Part shown: one piece after another, positions 12,935 to 28,298 of the stretch
Layout of the letters: the number at the start of each line of letters is the position of its first letter
How positions within the stretch are numbered: position 1 is the first letter of the stretch
Source: Salipiger sp. IMCC34102
Lineage (GTDB): Bacteria; Pseudomonadota; Alphaproteobacteria; Rhodobacterales; Rhodobacteraceae
Direction: 5' to 3'
NCBI RefSeq assembly: GCF_004145405.1
Contig: NZ_SELQ01000003.1
Location: 186,001 to 250,000 of the forward strand
DNA length: 64,000 nucleotides
Position numbers and translations under genes: made by a program
Notes under the pieces: generated by a model
Told to the model about the DNA's origin: nothing
Databases searched by the model: none
What the model saw: the letters and a program-made list of their open reading frames with translations, nothing else

Positions 12935-13033
12935 TGATCGATCAAGACGCGCCCTGTCAATCACTTTCGATCACGAGCACTCATTCTGCGGTGCAGCATG
13001 AACGGTTGTGAGCGTTTATGATTGACTTCGATC
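12935..13033. promoter_or_regulatory. rhaR-rhaD divergent control region with repeated TCGATC boxes
   Basis: The 186-base divergent spacer contains the perfect palindrome TGATCGATCA (12935-12944) and two further direct TTCGATC copies (12966-12972 and 13027-13033). Repeated short boxes suit a DeoR repressor acting on both promoters. The assignment rests on repetition and position only. Confidence 0.35.
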
Positions 13034-21534: not shown

Positions 21535-23931
21535 ATGACCGATTATTCCGAAGACGACGCCTTCGAGCGTGCCGTGCCCTTGTCGCAACGTGCCATGGCG
21601 CGCCCCGCGGCGGCGGCCGATTACCTTGACGGGTTGAACCCCGCGCAGCGTGCGGCGGTCGAGGCGCTGGAAGGGCCCGTCCTGATGCTGGCGGGGGCCG
21701 GCACCGGCAAGACGCGGGCGCTGACCGCAAGAATCGCGCATCTGCTGACGACCGGCACGGCGCAGCCGCGCGAGATCCTGGCCGTGACCTTCACCAACAA
21801 GGCCGCGCGCGAGATGAAGGAGCGCGTGGGACGGCTTTTGGGGCAGACGGTGGAGGGGATGCCCTGGCTCGGCACCTTCCACGCAATCTGCGTCAAGCAA
21901 TTGCGCCGTCATGCGGAGCTGGTGGGGCTGAAGTCGAACTTCACCATCCTGGACACAGACGATCAGTTGCGGCTGATGAAGCAGCTCATCATCGCCGAAG
22001 GCATCGACGAGAAGCGCTGGCCGCCGCGGATGCTGGCGGGGATCATCGACGGCTGGAAGAACAAGGCCTACGGGCCCGACAAGGTGCCGCTTTCGGACGC
22101 GGGCGCCTTCGACCACAAGGGGGTGGAGCTTTATGCCGCCTACCAGGCGCGGCTGCGCGATCTGAACGCCTGCGATTTCGGCGATCTGCTGCTGCATATG
22201 GTGACGATCTTCCAGACCCACGAGGACGTGCTGGCGCAGTACCAGCGCTGGTTCCGATACATCCTCGTGGACGAGTACCAGGACACCAACGTGGCCCAGT
22301 ACCTGTGGCTGCGGCTTCTGGCGCAGTGCCACAAGAACATCTGCTGCGTGGGCGACGACGACCAGTCGATCTACGGTTGGCGCGGGGCGGAGGTCGGCAA
22401 CATCCTGCGGTTCGAAACCGATTTCCCCGGCGCCACGGTCGTGAAGCTGGAACAGAACTACCGCTCGACGCCGCATATCCTGGCCGCGGCCTCCGGCGTG
22501 ATCGCCTCGAACAAGGGGCGGCTGGGCAAGACGCTCTTCACCGACGCCGAAGAGGGCGAGAAGGTCCGCCTGATCGGCCATTGGGACGGCGAGGAGGAAG
22601 CGCGCTGGATCGGCGAGGAGGTCGAGGCGCTGCAACGCGGCACCCGGGGGCTGGAACCTGTCGGGCTGGACAACCAGGCGATCCTGGTGCGCGCGAGCCA
22701 CCAGATGCGCGCCTTCGAGGACCGGTTCCTGACCATCGGGTTGCCCTACCGGGTGATCGGGGGGCCGCGCTTCTACGAGCGACTCGAGGTGCGCGACGCC
22801 ATGGCCTATTTCCGCCTCGCGGTGAGCCTCGACGACGATCTGGCCTTCGAGCGGATCGTGAACACGCCCAAGCGTGGCCTGGGCGACAAGGCGGTTCAGA
22901 CGATCCAGCGCACCGCGCGCAGCAATGGTGTGAGCCTCGTCGAAGGGGCGCGGCTCGTGGTGCAGGCGAAACTCCTGGGCGGCAAGGGCCTGCGCGAACT
23001 GGGCGTTCTGGTCGACGGCCTCGACCGCTGGCATGCGCAGGTGCGGGCCGAGGCGGATACCCACGTCGAACTGGCCGAGATGATCCTCGACGAATCGGGC
23101 TACACGGGGATGTGGCAGAACGACAAGACGCCGGAGGCGCCGGGCCGTCTGGAGAACCTGAAGGAACTGGTAAAGGCGCTGGAGAATTTCGACAACCTTC
23201 AGGGCTTCCTCGAACACGTGGCGCTTATCATGGACAACGAGACCGAGGTCGAAGGCGAGAAGGTCAGCATCATGACCCTGCACGCCGCCAAGGGGCTCGA
23301 GTTTCCCGCCGTTTTCCTGCCGGGGTGGGAAGACGGGCTGTTCCCGTCGCAACGCTCGATGGATGAAAGCGGTCTGAAGGGCCTCGAAGAGGAACGCCGC
23401 CTGGCTTACGTCGGGATCACCCGGGCGGAGGAGATCTGCACGATCTCCTTCGCGGCGAACCGCCGGGTCTACGGCCAGTGGCAGTCGGCCTTGCCGTCGC
23501 GTTTCGTGGACGAGCTGCCGGAGGATCACGTGGAGGTCCTGACACCGCCCGGCCTATATGGCGGCGGTTACGGGGCGGCGGGGATGGCGGCAACCGCCAG
23601 TCCGAAGCTGCGCGAGGAATCCATGTCCGACCTGCACCAGAAGGCGCATGACGCGAACGTCTACAACTCTCCGGGTTGGCGGCGGTTGCAAGCGCGCGGC
23701 CAGCAGCGCGGCGTGAAGCAGCCGGCGGAGGCGCGGAACATGGTCATCGATCTCGACGCGGTCAGCAGCTACACCACCGGCGACCGCGTGTTCCACACCA
23801 AGTTCGGCTACGGCGAGGTGATGGGGATCGAAGGCGACAAGCTGGCGATCGAGTTCGACAAGGCGGGATCGAAGAACGTCGTCGCCAAGTTCGTCGTGCC
23901 GGCCGATACCGCGAGCGACGTGCCGTTCTGA
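21535..23931 (+). CDS. uvrD: ATP-dependent DNA helicase UvrD/PcrA
   Basis: 798 residues of superfamily 1A. Motifs run in order: Q-motif LNPAQRAAV, Walker A GAGTGKT (about residues 54-60), TFTNKAAREMKER, VDEYQDTN (DExx box), GDDDQSIYGWRGAE, EQNYRST, MTLHAAKGLEF and VGITRAEE. The C-terminus ends with the Tudor-like domain (GDRVFHTKFGYGEVMGIEGD) that contacts RNA polymerase in UvrD/PcrA. It unwinds DNA in nucleotide excision and mismatch repair. The N-terminus has about 30 extra residues before the Q-motif. The start at 21535 is the only ATG ahead of this and its ribosome site is weak. Confidence 0.95.
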   Translation: MTDYSEDDAFERAVPLSQRAMARPAAAADYLDGLNPAQRAAVEALEGPVLMLAGAGTGKTRALTARIAHLLTTGTAQPREILAVTFTNKAAREMKERVGRLLGQTVEGMPWLGTFHAICVKQLRRHAELVGLKSNFTILDTDDQLRLMKQLIIAEGIDEKRWPPRMLAGIIDGWKNKAYGPDKVPLSDAGAFDHKGVELYAAYQARLRDLNACDFGDLLLHMVTIFQTHEDVLAQYQRWFRYILVDEYQDTNVAQYLWLRLLAQCHKNICCVGDDDQSIYGWRGAEVGNILRFETDFPGATVVKLEQNYRSTPHILAAASGVIASNKGRLGKTLFTDAEEGEKVRLIGHWDGEEEARWIGEEVEALQRGTRGLEPVGLDNQAILVRASHQMRAFEDRFLTIGLPYRVIGGPRFYERLEVRDAMAYFRLAVSLDDDLAFERIVNTPKRGLGDKAVQTIQRTARSNGVSLVEGARLVVQAKLLGGKGLRELGVLVDGLDRWHAQVRAEADTHVELAEMILDESGYTGMWQNDKTPEAPGRLENLKELVKALENFDNLQGFLEHVALIMDNETEVEGEKVSIMTLHAAKGLEFPAVFLPGWEDGLFPSQRSMDESGLKGLEEERRLAYVGITRAEEICTISFAANRRVYGQWQSALPSRFVDELPEDHVEVLTPPGLYGGGYGAAGMAATASPKLREESMSDLHQKAHDANVYNSPGWRRLQARGQQRGVKQPAEARNMVIDLDAVSSYTTGDRVFHTKFGYGEVMGIEGDKLAIEFDKAGSKNVVAKFVVPADTASDVPF

Positions 23932-24064
23932 GAAGGTCGTCCAGGTCGCGCGTACGGCCCCATGCCATCGCCGGCGGAACCACCTGCGCGACGGCCCGGG
24001 GGGACGTCCGTGTGATCAGGAGCGTCACCAAGAGGATGGGCGCGATGCCTCGAACCGACATACG

Positions 24065-24104
24065 AAAAAAGGCGATGCGCGGGAGGAGGTGCGCATCGCC
24101 TTTT
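24065..24104. terminator. Bidirectional intrinsic terminator at the uvrD / sRNA array junction
   Basis: Perfect arms GGCGATGCGC (24071-24080) and GCGCATCGCC (24091-24100). The minus strand continues with six T, ending the sRNA array; the plus strand continues with TTTT, 139 bases after uvrD. Its loop is itself a copy of the CCTCCTCCC motif. The 133 bases between uvrD and this hairpin show no gene. Confidence 0.85.
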
Positions 24105-24508
24105 CGTTTGCGGCACAAACCTCGGGGAGGAGGTCGGGTCTGCGCCGGGACCGGGGCTTATGGGAGGAGAGCGCCCGGTCAACGGGCCGCCGCGGGAGGA
24201 GGTGCAGCGCCCGTATCCGTATGAGGTGCGGTGATCGCCGGGAGGAGGTGGCGATCACCGCGGTGTGGACCAACCGCAGGGAGGAGGACGCGGCGGATCC
24301 GGGTCTTTGTCCCGAGGGCATCGGCGGGGAGGAGGTCGCCTGAACCCTGGAACCAACGCATGCCGCGGGAGGAGGTGCGACATCCGTATCTTTTGTCAAA
24401 ACGGCGGCCCCTGGCCGGGAGGAGGTGGCCGGAGCCGCCGTCTTGAAGGTGCACATCGCCTCTATGGGAGGAGGGGGCGACGCGCTACAGATCCGGGCGG
24501 GGAGGAGG
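24081..24508 (-). repeat. Eleven-copy CCTCCTCCC loop motif
   Basis: Plus-strand positions of GGGAGGAGG: 24081, 24125, 24162 (last base A), 24194, 24240, 24279, 24327, 24367, 24417, 24466 and 24500. Spacing alternates between about 31 and 51 bases. The nine-base loop is constant while every stem differs in sequence yet stays complementary, so the loop and the pairing are conserved rather than the arms. Confidence 0.9.
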
Positions 24509-24529
24509 TCGCCGGGATCCGATGGAAAT

Positions 24530-24730
24530 TCAGTTGCCGTAGGCGGCTTCGGCCGCGATGCTCTTGACCATCGAGCGGGAGATGCCAAGATCGTCCAGTT
24601 CGCGGTTGCTGAGCGCGGACAGCTCACGGACGGTTGCGCTGTAGACGCGGCGGCGGTTCGCGGCGTCGATGAGCCGGGCGCGAAGACCGGCCAGGCCGTT
24701 CGGTGCGGTGTTGGTGCTGAAAAGTGCCAT
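24530..24730 (-). CDS. DUF1127 family small protein (CcaF1-like)
   Basis: 66 residues; the arginine-rich RARLIDAANRRRVYSATVRELSALSNRELDDLGISRSMVKSIAAEAAYG is a canonical DUF1127 domain. Members are small basic proteins; the Rhodobacter sphaeroides one encoded just before the CcsR RNAs (CcaF1) binds RNA. AAAGG lies 9 bases before the ATG. The first sRNA hairpin begins 10 bases after the stop, so protein and RNAs must share a transcript. A promoter candidate lies about 75 bases upstream. Confidence 0.88.
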   Translation of the reverse strand: MALFSTNTAPNGLAGLRARLIDAANRRRVYSATVRELSALSNRELDDLGISRSMVKSIAAEAAYGN

Positions 24731-24804: not shown

Positions 24805-24833
24805 TTATATGAGTTGATGCTGCAATTGCACAA
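24805..24833 (-). promoter_or_regulatory. Promoter candidate for the DUF1127-sRNA operon, with palindrome
   Basis: On the minus strand TTGTGC (24828-24833), 17 bases, then ATATAA (24805-24810), giving an expected start near 24797 and a leader of about 67 bases. The spacer and -35 contain the perfect 10-base palindrome TGCAATTGCA (24821-24830). In Rhodobacter the equivalent promoter uses heat-shock-type sigma factors; the CTCATATA stretch is compatible with that but not decisive. Confidence 0.4.
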
Positions 24834-24995
24834 TCGCCGTCTCGGCAATGCTGCTATGCAGCAAATGCAAGGTTACCCAAGGTCGCTTGCGAATCCGTGA
24901 ATCGCTACGGGCGCAGACCTTGCATCCGGGCGGCCTTGCACCTTCGCCCCGGGCGGCAGAGGGTGCAGCCGTTAGACAAGGAAGGACCCGGTCGC

Positions 24996-26069
24996 ATGGC
25001 GCTTGATCGACGAACCCTCATGGACACGCTGTCGCGGGTCGGATTGCCCGATGGCGGCGACATCGTCTCGCGCGACATGGTGCGGGCCGTGACAATAGAA
25101 GGGGACACCGTCCGCTTTGTCATCGAAGCGCCCGATGCCGCGACCGCCGCCCGGATGGAGCCGGTGCGCGCCGCCGCGGTGCAACTGGTGCAGGAACTTC
25201 GACCGAACCTGTCCGTCTCTGCGGTGCTGACGGCCCACGGTCCCGCCAAGCCCGCGCCCGAACCCCCCAGCCTCAAGGTCGGTCGTCATCCCACGCCGCA
25301 GGACGGGCCGCAGCGCGTGGCCGGTGTCGATCGGATCCTGGCCGTGGGCTCGGGCAAGGGGGGCGTCGGAAAATCGACGGTGTCCTCGAACCTTGCGGTG
25401 GCACTGGCGAAGGCGGGGCGGCGGGTCGGCCTGCTGGATGCGGATATCTACGGGCCCAGTCAGCCGCGCATGATGGGGGTAAGCCAGCGCCCCGGCAGTC
25501 CCGACGGCAAGAAGATCATTCCGCTCAAGGCGCATGGTGTCACGATGATGTCGATCGGCTTGATGGTGGATCCCGCGAAGGCCGTGGTCTGGCGCGGGCC
25601 GATGCTGATGGGCGCGCTTCAACAGATGCTGGGACAGGTGGAATGGGGCAACCTCGACGTTCTTATAATAGACCTGCCGCCCGGCACCGGCGACGTGCAG
25701 CTGACGCTGGCGCAGAAGACCGACCTGACGGGGGCCGTCATCGTCAGCACGCCTCAGGACGTGGCGCTTCTGGACGCACGCAAGGCAATGGACATGTTCA
25801 ACACCCTCAAGACCCCTGTGCTGGGCCTGATCGAGAACATGTCGACCTTCCACTGTCCGCATTGCGGTGAGGAAACCCAGATCTTCGGCCACGGCGGCGT
25901 CGGGCGCGAGGCGGAGGCGTTGGGCCTTCCGCTGCTGGGCGCCTTGCCCATCGACCTCGACACGCGGCTGGCGGGGGATGCGGGCACACCCGTTGCGGCA
26001 GGAGACGGCCCCGCGGCCCAGGCCTATGCCGCGCTCGCCAGAGGATTGATCGACGGCGGCATGGCCTGA
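24996..26069 (+). CDS. mrp: Mrp/ApbC family iron-sulfur cluster carrier P-loop ATPase
   Basis: 357 residues. An N-terminal MIP18-like (DUF59) domain (residues about 1-80) is followed by a deviant Walker A GSGKGGVGKST (about residue 117), the conserved DADIYGPSQPRMMG, LLIDLPPGTGDVQLTL and the C-terminal ENMSTFHCPHCGEE with the CxxC pair used to bridge a [4Fe-4S] cluster between two subunits. It delivers clusters to apoproteins in the cytoplasm. The ATG at 24996 has GGAAGGA upstream; an earlier in-frame ATG at 24897 would add a non-conserved arginine-rich stretch. Confidence 0.93.
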   Translation: MALDRRTLMDTLSRVGLPDGGDIVSRDMVRAVTIEGDTVRFVIEAPDAATAARMEPVRAAAVQLVQELRPNLSVSAVLTAHGPAKPAPEPPSLKVGRHPTPQDGPQRVAGVDRILAVGSGKGGVGKSTVSSNLAVALAKAGRRVGLLDADIYGPSQPRMMGVSQRPGSPDGKKIIPLKAHGVTMMSIGLMVDPAKAVVWRGPMLMGALQQMLGQVEWGNLDVLIIDLPPGTGDVQLTLAQKTDLTGAVIVSTPQDVALLDARKAMDMFNTLKTPVLGLIENMSTFHCPHCGEETQIFGHGGVGREAEALGLPLLGALPIDLDTRLAGDAGTPVAAGDGPAAQAYAALARGLIDGGMA

Positions 26070-26813: not shown

Positions 26814-26839
26814 GTGGGGACGGAAAGGGCAACGTGGAA
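26814..26839 (+). promoter_or_regulatory. MraZ box-like repeats over the mraZ start
   Basis: GTGGGG (26814), AAAGGG (26824) and GTGGAA (26834) recur with an exact 10-base period, and the last overlaps the mraZ start codon. MraZ represses its own operon by binding direct TGGGN repeats spaced every 10 bases. The repeats here are imperfect. Confidence 0.35.
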
Positions 26840-27328
26840 GAGGACGGCTTCACGGGCACGTTTCAGTCGAAGGTCGACCGGAAAGGGCGCATGTCCATTC
26901 CGGCGAAGTTTCGACGCGTGATCGAGGAAGGCGACCCCGCGTGGTCCTCCGGCAAGCCGATGCAGGCCAAGATACTCTACGGCAAGCACCTGGGCGAAAG
27001 CCTGCAGATCCTGACCGTGAACGAGTTCCGCGCAAAGATGGCCCGGATCCTCGCCATGCCCGATTCCGATCCCAACAAGCAGTACATCAAACGCCTGTTC
27101 CTGGGCTATTCCGACGAGCTGACCATCGACAAGGACGGCCGCGTCGTGCTCGCCCAGCGGTATCGCGAGAAGCTGGGCATCGTCGAAGGCGAGCTGTCCT
27201 TCATGGGTCTCGGCGATTTCATCCAGGTCTGGAAGGACGAGAACTTCGAGGAAGCCGTGGACGCACCCATGGACGACTGGCTGGAGGGGCGCGGCGACCA
27301 TTTCGACCCCATGAGCCTGGTGGGCTAG
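26834..27328 (+). CDS. mraZ: Transcriptional regulator MraZ
   Basis: 164 residues with two AbrB-like MraZ repeats: [24 protein letters not shown] near residue 10 and [22 protein letters not shown] near residue 95. It is the first gene of the division and cell-wall cluster and a DNA-binding autorepressor of that cluster. The start is GTG at 26834, 5 bases after GGAAAGGG; no ATG is available before the first repeat. It is slightly longer than the E. coli protein because of the C-terminal tail [18 protein letters not shown]. Confidence 0.94.
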
Positions 27329-27332
27329 CAAG

Positions 27333-28298
27333 ATGGCCGATGCCGCACCCCATGTTCCGGTCCTCATCGACGCCATCATCGACGCCTGCGCGCCGGTGGA
27401 GGGGACCTGGCTCGACGGGACCTTCGGGGCAGGGGGCTACACCCGCCGCCTGCTGGAAGCGGGGGCCCGGCGCGTGATCGCCGTCGACCGCGATCCGCTC
27501 GCCTTCGAGATGGCGCGCGGCTGGATCGACGGCTACGGCGATCGCATCGAATGCGTGGCCGGTGAATTCTCGAAGCTGGACACCTATGCCGGTGAGCTCG
27601 ACGGGGTAGTGCTGGATCTGGGCGTGTCCTCGATGCAGCTCGACCGGCCGGAGCGGGGCTTTTCCTTCATGCGCGACGGTCCGCTCGACATGCGCATGTC
27701 GCAAAGCGGTCCCTCTGCCGCGGACCTCGTGAACACGGCGGACGAGGGCGCGCTGGCCGACATCATCTACCTTTACGGCGAGGAGCGCGCCAGCCGACGG
27801 ATCGCCCGCGCCATCGTCGCTGCGCGCCCCGTCAGCACGACGCTGGAGCTGGCCGGGCTGGTCGAATCCTGCCTGCCGCGCGCCAAGCCGAACCAGTCCC
27901 ATCCCGCGACCCGAACCTTCCAGGCGCTGCGGATCGCGGTGAACGACGAATACGGCGAGCTGGCCGAGGGGCTCATGGCCGCCGAACGCGCCTTGCGCCC
28001 CGGCGGGCAGTTGGCGGTCGTGACCTTCCACTCGGTCGAGGACCGCATGGTCAAGCGGTTCCTGCAGGCCCGCTCGGGGAACACCGCAAACGCGAACCGT
28101 TTCGCGCCCGCGCTCGAAGAGGTGACACCCGCCTTCACTCAAGCCTCCCGCAAGGCCATCGCGCCGAACGAGGCCGAAGTCGCGGCCAATCCGCGCGCGC
28201 GATCGGCCAAGTTGCGGGTGGCCCGCCGCACCGATGCCCCGTCACAGCCCATCGACCGCAAGACGCTGGGCATGCCGCTGAGGAAGGACGACCGATGA
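27333..28298 (+). CDS. rsmH: 16S rRNA (cytosine-1402 N4) methyltransferase RsmH
   Basis: 321 residues. It has the SAM-binding [14 protein letters not shown] (about residues 29-42), VIAVDRDP, the family hallmark [26 protein letters not shown], and [15 protein letters not shown] near the C-terminus. It methylates C1402 in the ribosomal P site. It begins 4 bases after mraZ and overlaps ftsL. It was formerly called MraW. Confidence 0.96.

Follow-up and report, generated by a model that had tools for sequence, protein, structure and literature searches.

In Rhodobacter sphaeroides, the gene ccaF1 is cotranscribed with four CcsR RNAs from an RpoHI/RpoHII promoter and the transcript is processed by RNase E, as described in passages of PMC10253847. 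According to the same passages, the DUF1127 protein of this species takes part, together with RNase E, in CcsR maturation, and the term CIN1 denotes the link between a short DUF1127 gene and CcsR-like RNAs. An excerpt of PMC5036791 gives RSs0680a-d as the former names of CcsR1-4. In Sinorhizobium meliloti, the RNA alpha-r14/NfeR1 (Rfam RF02344) is described as consisting of three hairpins with its own sigma-70 promoter; its seeds, which are redundant, silence ntrB at the initiation region (passages of PMC10746234). The S. meliloti RNAs SmelA075 and SmelA099, with three and four hairpins, respectively, occur in several dispersed copies per genome, and their loop motif is termed anti-Shine-Dalgarno in the relevant part of PMC3927594.

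The hairpin array analyzed here lies in a 64-kb stretch of DNA (referred to as the window) and is a DUF1127-CcsR (CIN1, cuckoo RNA) locus of Rhodobacteraceae, i.e. of a known kind and not a new one. Belonging to a known family, the locus is in itself ordinary, and what value it has lies in comparison.

Organization of the hairpin array

Exact matches to the nine-base motif CCTCCTCCC are found 11 times in the window (both strands), compared to an expected number of 1.17, and none of 100 shuffled sequences contained 11 or more. Ten of these copies are clustered on the minus strand (24081–24508), and the pattern CTCCTCCC adds one further copy to the array (24162–24169). Free minimum-energy folding of region 24050–24540 (minus strand) produced eleven hairpins with the motif in every loop. 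The energy of this fold is −245 kcal/mol, compared to −181.4±6.0 kcal/mol for shuffled sequences (z −10.7; 0 of 100 as low). The array extends over 24066–24521 of the minus strand and comprises the following hairpins (the arm test and the pairs changed on both sides are described in the next section):

24488–24521, minus strand: hairpin 1, CCTCCTCCC in the loop (whole-region fold and arm test)
24451–24485, minus strand: hairpin 2, with a larger loop that holds CCTCCTCCC (fold and arm test)
24396–24446, minus strand: hairpin 3, the longest stem, 20 pairs (fold and arm test)
24356–24387, minus strand: hairpin 4, two pairs with both sides changed (fold and arm test)
24309–24353, minus strand: hairpin 5 (fold and arm test)
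24267–24300, minus strand: hairpin 6 (whole-region fold)
24228–24261, minus strand: hairpin 7, one pair with both sides changed (fold and arm test)
24182–24214, minus strand: hairpin 8, two pairs with both sides changed (fold and arm test)
24149–24180, minus strand: hairpin 9, variant loop TCTCCTCCC (fold)
24111–24147, minus strand: hairpin 10 (fold and arm test)
24066–24105, minus strand: hairpin 11, terminator-type, with a T run and the motif in the loop (fold)

Hairpin 6 forms in the whole-region fold; alone, in a 53-nt segment, it adopts a different structure. Hairpin 9 is the odd one of the array, differing in both its loop and its inner stem. The motifs are spaced 32–50 nt apart, with neither long gaps nor alternation of short and long spacings. 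At the 3′ end, hairpin 11 and the T run provide the feature of a Rho-independent terminator, and the last hairpin is of the same type in all nine arrays of the window's genus. No terminator was reported by an automatic scan of the region, because the scan accepts loops of up to 8 nt and that of hairpin 11 has 10.

These results confirm the eleven-hairpin array noticed in a sequence-only reading of this DNA, as well as its closure by an intrinsic terminator (24066–24105, with the T run). The reading had counted eleven copies of one nine-base loop. The eleven hairpins stand, but the loops carry ten exact 9-mers and one variant identical at 8/9 positions (TCTCCTCCC, 24162–24170, minus strand), and the term “nine-base loop” was loosely chosen for loops of 10–15 nt that include the motif.

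Stem pairing and covariation

In the arm test, the 5′ and 3′ arms of each hairpin in the window array were paired with their own partners or with those of other hairpins. The mean energy was −20.5 kcal/mol for own arms and −9.7 kcal/mol for swapped ones; the own partner was top-ranked in 9 of the 11 rows and runner-up in the remaining two. No arm permutation among 20,000 paired as well as the own arms, which, together with the covariation described below, bears out the earlier claim that each loop is held in a different, self-complementary stem. The same was observed for 157 distinct arrays from the listed loci, where the own partner was the best one in 1075 of 1326 hairpins (means −20.6 versus −11.4 kcal/mol).

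Covariation was examined in the window array and those of three genomes of the same genus (G151, G152 and G153), whose eleven hairpins match one-to-one in order; the set represents about three lineages, since G151 and G152 are very alike by eye. The number of pairs changed on both sides was 17, compared to 6.3 in shuffled data, and 85.4% of cells were paired, compared to 82.0%; neither value was reached in any of 500 shuffles. When the partner was slid, at most 8 pairs had both sides changed, as against 17 in the unslid version, which is favored in the percentage of paired cells since the structure was taken from the window. Helices 1, 2, 5 and 10 showed pairing in just 61–70% of cells. Covariation of the stems had been set beforehand as one refutation test of the reading, and it holds.

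Counts of invariant columns in four same-genus genomes, three of which were found by protein and not by motif, revealed a marked difference between parts of the array: the loop motif accounts for 94 invariant columns out of 99, the stems for 176 out of 277 and other positions for 32 out of 79.

Genomic context and family assignment

The array is placed directly downstream of a gene encoding a DUF1127 protein on the same strand, as the reading had claimed, with 21 nt separating the stop codon from motif 1. From this anatomy, the gene and the array would be cotranscribed. The neighboring genes and the matches to Rfam models are as follows:

24530–24730, minus strand: gene of a DUF1127 protein, 66 aa, in the place of CcaF1 (PF06568, 50.6 bits, E 1.6e-13)
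21535–23931, strand opposite to the array: PcrA/UvrD-type helicase (best NCBIfam match, below cut-off)
24897–26069, opposite strand: ApbC/Mrp-type carrier (best NCBIfam match, below cut-off)
26834–27328, opposite strand: MraZ (best NCBIfam match, below cut-off)
27333–28298, opposite strand: RsmH (above the NCBIfam cut-off)
24065–24184, minus strand: match to Rfam ar14 (RF02344), hairpins 9–11 (63.5 bits, above the cut-off of 58.8)
24064–24152, minus strand: match to Rfam CcsR1 (RF02791), hairpins 10–11 (38.4 bits, below the cut-off of 65.3; E 1.3e-7)

The DUF1127 protein matched no NCBIfam family at E 0.001. A second DUF1127 gene (43% identity) is present in the same genome (L060, G000:C10:607421-607582); no cluster of at least two motifs was found in its 3.2-kb locus.

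The sequence-only reading had assigned the locus to the DUF1127 and CcsR/cuckoo family. This assignment is upheld by the ar14 match, the E value of the CcsR1 match, the DUF1127 gene upstream and the mraZ neighborhood. The check with covariance models that it had proposed gave a divided result: ar14 passes its cut-off and CcsR1 fails. Other stretches of the array scored 55.9 and 50.4 bits with ar14, below the cut-off. Across the family, the CcsR1 model exceeds its cut-off in 17 of 394 genomes and matches at E ≤0.001 in 324 of 394. A separate ar14 match (L004; 32.6 bits, below the cut-off, without CCTCCTCCC) was set aside.

Like the CcsR1-4/ccaF1 operon of Rhodobacter (Cereibacter) sphaeroides (RF02791), the locus consists of a DUF1127 gene followed by CCUCCUCCC hairpins and a 3′ terminator, lies near mraZ and has a putative promoter that fits the TTG and TAT signature; it differs from the CcsR1 family in its score, which is under the cut-off. 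It shares with alpha-r14/NfeR1 the CCUCCUCCC tips and hairpins with variable stems, and, as in the Rfam ar14 model, the terminator-like last hairpin bears the motif too. NfeR1 differs from the window locus, where eleven hairpins are found behind a protein gene, in its three hairpins and own promoter. The loop motif is also common to the cuckoo RNA family and CIN1 loci (Reinkensmeier and Giegerich 2015), and to SmelA075 and SmelA099, which have fewer hairpins and several dispersed copies.

The synteny of the locus was analyzed in 118 named loci, listed by motif scan. DUF1127 is directly upstream in 117 of them, a value partly built in by the search pattern, and in 39 of 46 arrays picked by motif alone. 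With the window proteins as queries, Mrp was found upstream on the other strand in 105 of the 118 loci, and Mrp, MraZ or RsmH in 110; since some of these loci are cut short, not all of the misses are true losses. The 118 loci include records named Rhodobacteraceae or Rhodobacterales bacterium, unclassified Alphaproteobacteria (L074, L091 and L174) and Pseudomonadota (L128 and L132); the remaining genera are presumably all Rhodobacteraceae.

Number and spacing of hairpins

A total of 173 loci (118 listed by motif scan, 46 motif-chosen and 9 of the genus) was reduced to 157 distinct arrays by removing 10 that were truncated at an end and 6 that were duplicates. All but 9 of the loci were chosen by motif (at least two or three motifs needed), so degenerate arrays are missed. 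The number of motifs in these 157 arrays ranges from 2 to 23 with a median of 8; 29 arrays, including that of the window, have eleven or more, and 21 have more than eleven. Tandem arrays of at least three motifs are present in 47 of 149 genomes of the family (own genome included). Triple arrays were detected in none of 285 genomes of other families, among 289 sampled; with one to few genomes per family, this absence says little about Rhizobiaceae.

The locus is present in all nine genomes of the window's genus, with 11, 11, 11, 11, 14, 15, 15, 19 and 23 motifs. Eleven is the minimum of this nine-genome set, to which the statement is limited, since two further Loktanella records (L133 and L161) have 7 motifs. 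The window's genus is the one to which Loktanella records belong: the arrays of G151 and G155 are the same as in Loktanella sp. DSM 29012 and Loktanella sp. LH_M9, and those of G150 and G006 the same as in L. fryxellensis and L. salsilacus.

Cuckoo RNAs reportedly have 2 to 4 hairpins. The Rfam CcsR1 model has 83 nt and contains two motif hairpins. In Cereibacter azotoformans (= Luteovulum azotoformans; L155), eight motifs are spaced by 39, 66, 38, 76, 40, 73 and 40 nt, i.e. they form four units of two hairpins each, which is what four CcsR RNAs would give; these four close pairs behind DUF1127 are likely to represent the ordinary CcsR1-4 layout. The comparison with R. sphaeroides is drawn through this species of the same genus. 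The description of the window array as an expanded version of a four-RNA locus, with more motifs than known, does not hold in that form: four CcsR-like pairs already amount to eight motifs, and a count of eleven is within the usual range of the arrays and the lowest in the window's genus (11–23). The idea that eleven is exceptional was rejected on the median and on the 29 arrays of this size or larger. By eye, the last two pairs of L155 resemble a recent duplication.

What sets the window array apart from that of C. azotoformans is its even spacing and the absence of two-hairpin units with long linkers. Among the 142 arrays from the listed loci with at least five motifs, 98 have spacings above 60 nt and 47 show strict alternation of short and long spacings; alternation throughout was found in 10 of the 15 retrieved loci that exceed the CcsR1 cut-off. 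Within the genus, spacings stay at or below 55 nt in eight of the nine arrays, and the ninth (L055) has one of 97 nt. Since spacings above 60 nt are absent from the window array, the two-hairpin CcsR products may not form there.

In the two largest arrays of the genus, hairpins four positions apart match at up to 30/30 (L056, G149; 23 motifs) or 29/30 (L058, G154; 19 motifs) arm positions, in several rounds, the result of tandem duplication of a four-hairpin cassette. No pair of hairpins in the window array matches at 24/30 or more arm positions. A further array of 11 motifs (L015, G027) has only 5 exact 9-mers and near-identical repeated hairpins; this is perhaps a recent expansion with changed loops.

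Proposed mode of action and alternative explanations

The explanation that we consider best, with a probability of about 0.72, is that of a DUF1127-CcsR operon transcribed from a stress promoter, in which the tips of the 3′ array have an anti-Shine-Dalgarno character and lower translation. One transcript would carry the DUF1127 message and the eleven hairpins and end at the terminator, and it would probably start, under stress, at a promoter of the stress-sigma (RpoH) type. Each hairpin would offer an unpaired CCUCCUCCC-type tip to which the Shine-Dalgarno region of a message could pair; the tips are read in this way partly because the 3′ end of 16S rRNA carries CCUCCU. The array might act either uncut or after cleavage by an RNase E-type enzyme, in which the DUF1127 protein would help. 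Messages with long purine-rich Shine-Dalgarno sites, e.g. those of transport or carbon-metabolism genes, would be translated less, and the many redundant tips would provide a higher seed dose per transcript. By analogy, the best supported mechanism would be that of CcsR and NfeR1, with redundant tips blocking translation starts; for anti-Shine-Dalgarno action of the array, support would come from the NfeR1 work, as presented in passages of PMC10746234.

Many hairpins with one repeated tip are also typical of sponge RNAs of the CsrB/RsmZ type, which have another motif and bind another protein, so that the likeness is an analogy only. It seems unlikely that the main role of the C-rich tips is to titrate a protein that binds RNA (DUF1127, Hfq or other) in a CsrB-like manner, with message pairing being secondary. 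The number of tips varies from 2 to 23 between the listed arrays and the tip is little changed, as would be expected for a dose of binding sites, and the DUF1127 gene adjoins the array; moreover, CcaF1 is described as binding RNA and affecting CcsR levels, and CcsR as interacting with Hfq. However, seed-mutated NfeR1 no longer silences its target reporter (passages of PMC10746234), and an excerpt of PMC12501420 reports that RNA binding was not detected for the Salmonella DUF1127 protein YjiS and that DUF1127 proteins contact PhoR.

Stability alone would not hold nearly all loop columns (94/99) invariant while the stems change, and the same tips are borne by trans-acting RNAs such as NfeR1. It is very unlikely that the array is a cis element, i.e. 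that it stabilizes the 3′ end or buffers processing and thereby determines how much DUF1127 message is present, with no effect on other messages, even though RNA structure generally hinders 3′ exonucleases, motif 1 begins only 21 nt past the stop codon and the array ends in a terminator-type hairpin. Hardly any credence can be given to the view that the array is no functional RNA but belongs to a family of repeats, resembles a CRISPR array or is the end of the coding sequence of an open frame (24025–24627, minus strand, 200 aa): the spacing is fairly regular (32–50 nt) and this long frame crosses the region, but the 9-mer alone repeats and the position of the array is syntenic. Coding sequence was rejected, since nothing but the 9-mer is conserved and the distances between motifs are mostly not divisible by three, and a CRISPR or mobile repeat was rejected because the stems differ and covary.

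The arrays of the DUF1127-CcsR operons form a natural dose series in which the number of seeds may be tested against silencing strength: the seeds are near-identical, number from 2 to 23 per array and sit at a position that is largely syntenic.

Candidate targets

Perfect Shine-Dalgarno matches near an ATG were found at 23 sites of the own genome, compared to 1 for the reversed pattern; this enrichment is uninformative with respect to targets, because it is to be expected of any genome whose ribosome sites are strong. At these sites 21 frames of at least 40 aa were read, two of which are the same gene and five of which look non-genic by eye. Six of the candidates were run against NCBIfam: acetoacetyl-CoA reductase, two TRAP substrate-binding proteins and MsrB were above the cut-off, and an ABC permease and an acyl-CoA dehydrogenase matched below the cut-offs only. 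The list of candidate targets is a prediction.

In the predicted acetoacetyl-CoA reductase gene (phaB type; L237/L242, G000:C42:222007-222023), the sequence GGGAGGAG, perfectly complementary to eight loop bases, is placed just before the ATG. GGGAGGA precedes phaB in seven of the nine genus genomes and is missing in two. These matches are merely suggestive of phaB as a target of the array.

Promoter region

Upstream of the DUF1127 gene, the following elements were identified by sequence match:

24851–24861, minus strand: CTGCATAGCAG, a PhaR-like box of the form CTGC-N3-GCAG, in agreement with the site CTGCNNNGCAG published for PhaR of R. sphaeroides
24817–24833, minus strand: TTGTGCAATTGCAGCAT, conserved element whose TTG fits an RpoHI/HII-type −35
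24807–24813, minus strand: CTCATAT, putative −10, contains TAT

The signature of RpoHI/HII promoters is TTG and TAT, according to a figure legend of PMC10673084; the TTG at 24833 and the TAT within 24807–24813 fit it. A sigma-70 promoter scan found none.

Conservation of the elements was examined in 141 distinct upstream regions from the listed loci, with mononucleotide shuffles as the control; kinship inflates the counts. TTGTGCA-NN-YGCAGCA is present in 124 of the 141 regions (shuffled 0), TGCA-N6-GCAT in 117 (shuffled 0.5) and CTGCNNNGCAG in 97 (shuffled 0.4); the S. meliloti PhaR form YGCRNYGCR occurs in just 19 (shuffled 5.95). A passage of PMC12542648 cites CTGCNNNGCAG as the site of PhaR in R. 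sphaeroides. The conserved element TTGTGCA-NN-YGCAGCAT also fits TGCA-N6-GCAT, the LsrB-type box of NfeR1 (passages of PMC10746234). PhaR, which senses polyhydroxybutyrate, is thus one candidate regulator of two, beside a LysR-type protein (LsrB), and a PhaR-type protein is encoded in the own genome (PF07879, 97.8 bits). The conserved box would suggest that one of these regulators acts on the promoter in addition to stress sigma factors. A thin literature check found no publication joining PhaR to DUF1127 or CcsR.

A more far-reaching version, which we regard as improbable, is that the array acts as a dose-tunable polyvalent anti-Shine-Dalgarno RNA. Its seed number would change by tandem duplication of the four-hairpin cassette (between 11 and 23 tips in one genus), it would work as one long regulator and not as separate CcsR RNAs, and its PhaR-controlled promoter would allow feedback on transport and polyhydroxybutyrate genes, e.g. 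phaB. The newer points are the evenly spaced arrays that grow by four-hairpin cassettes and the promoter box matching a published PhaR site; worth following are the conserved box, the even spacing of the hairpins and the dose series.

In an S. meliloti PhaR table, SMc02051 is listed at 1667000-1666980; this small PhaR-repressed gene, located approximately 0.5 kb from the cuckoo RNA NfeR1 (1667613-1667492), offers a lead. A further CTGC-N3-GCAG box (CTGCGGTGCAG) is present at 12986–12996 of the window.
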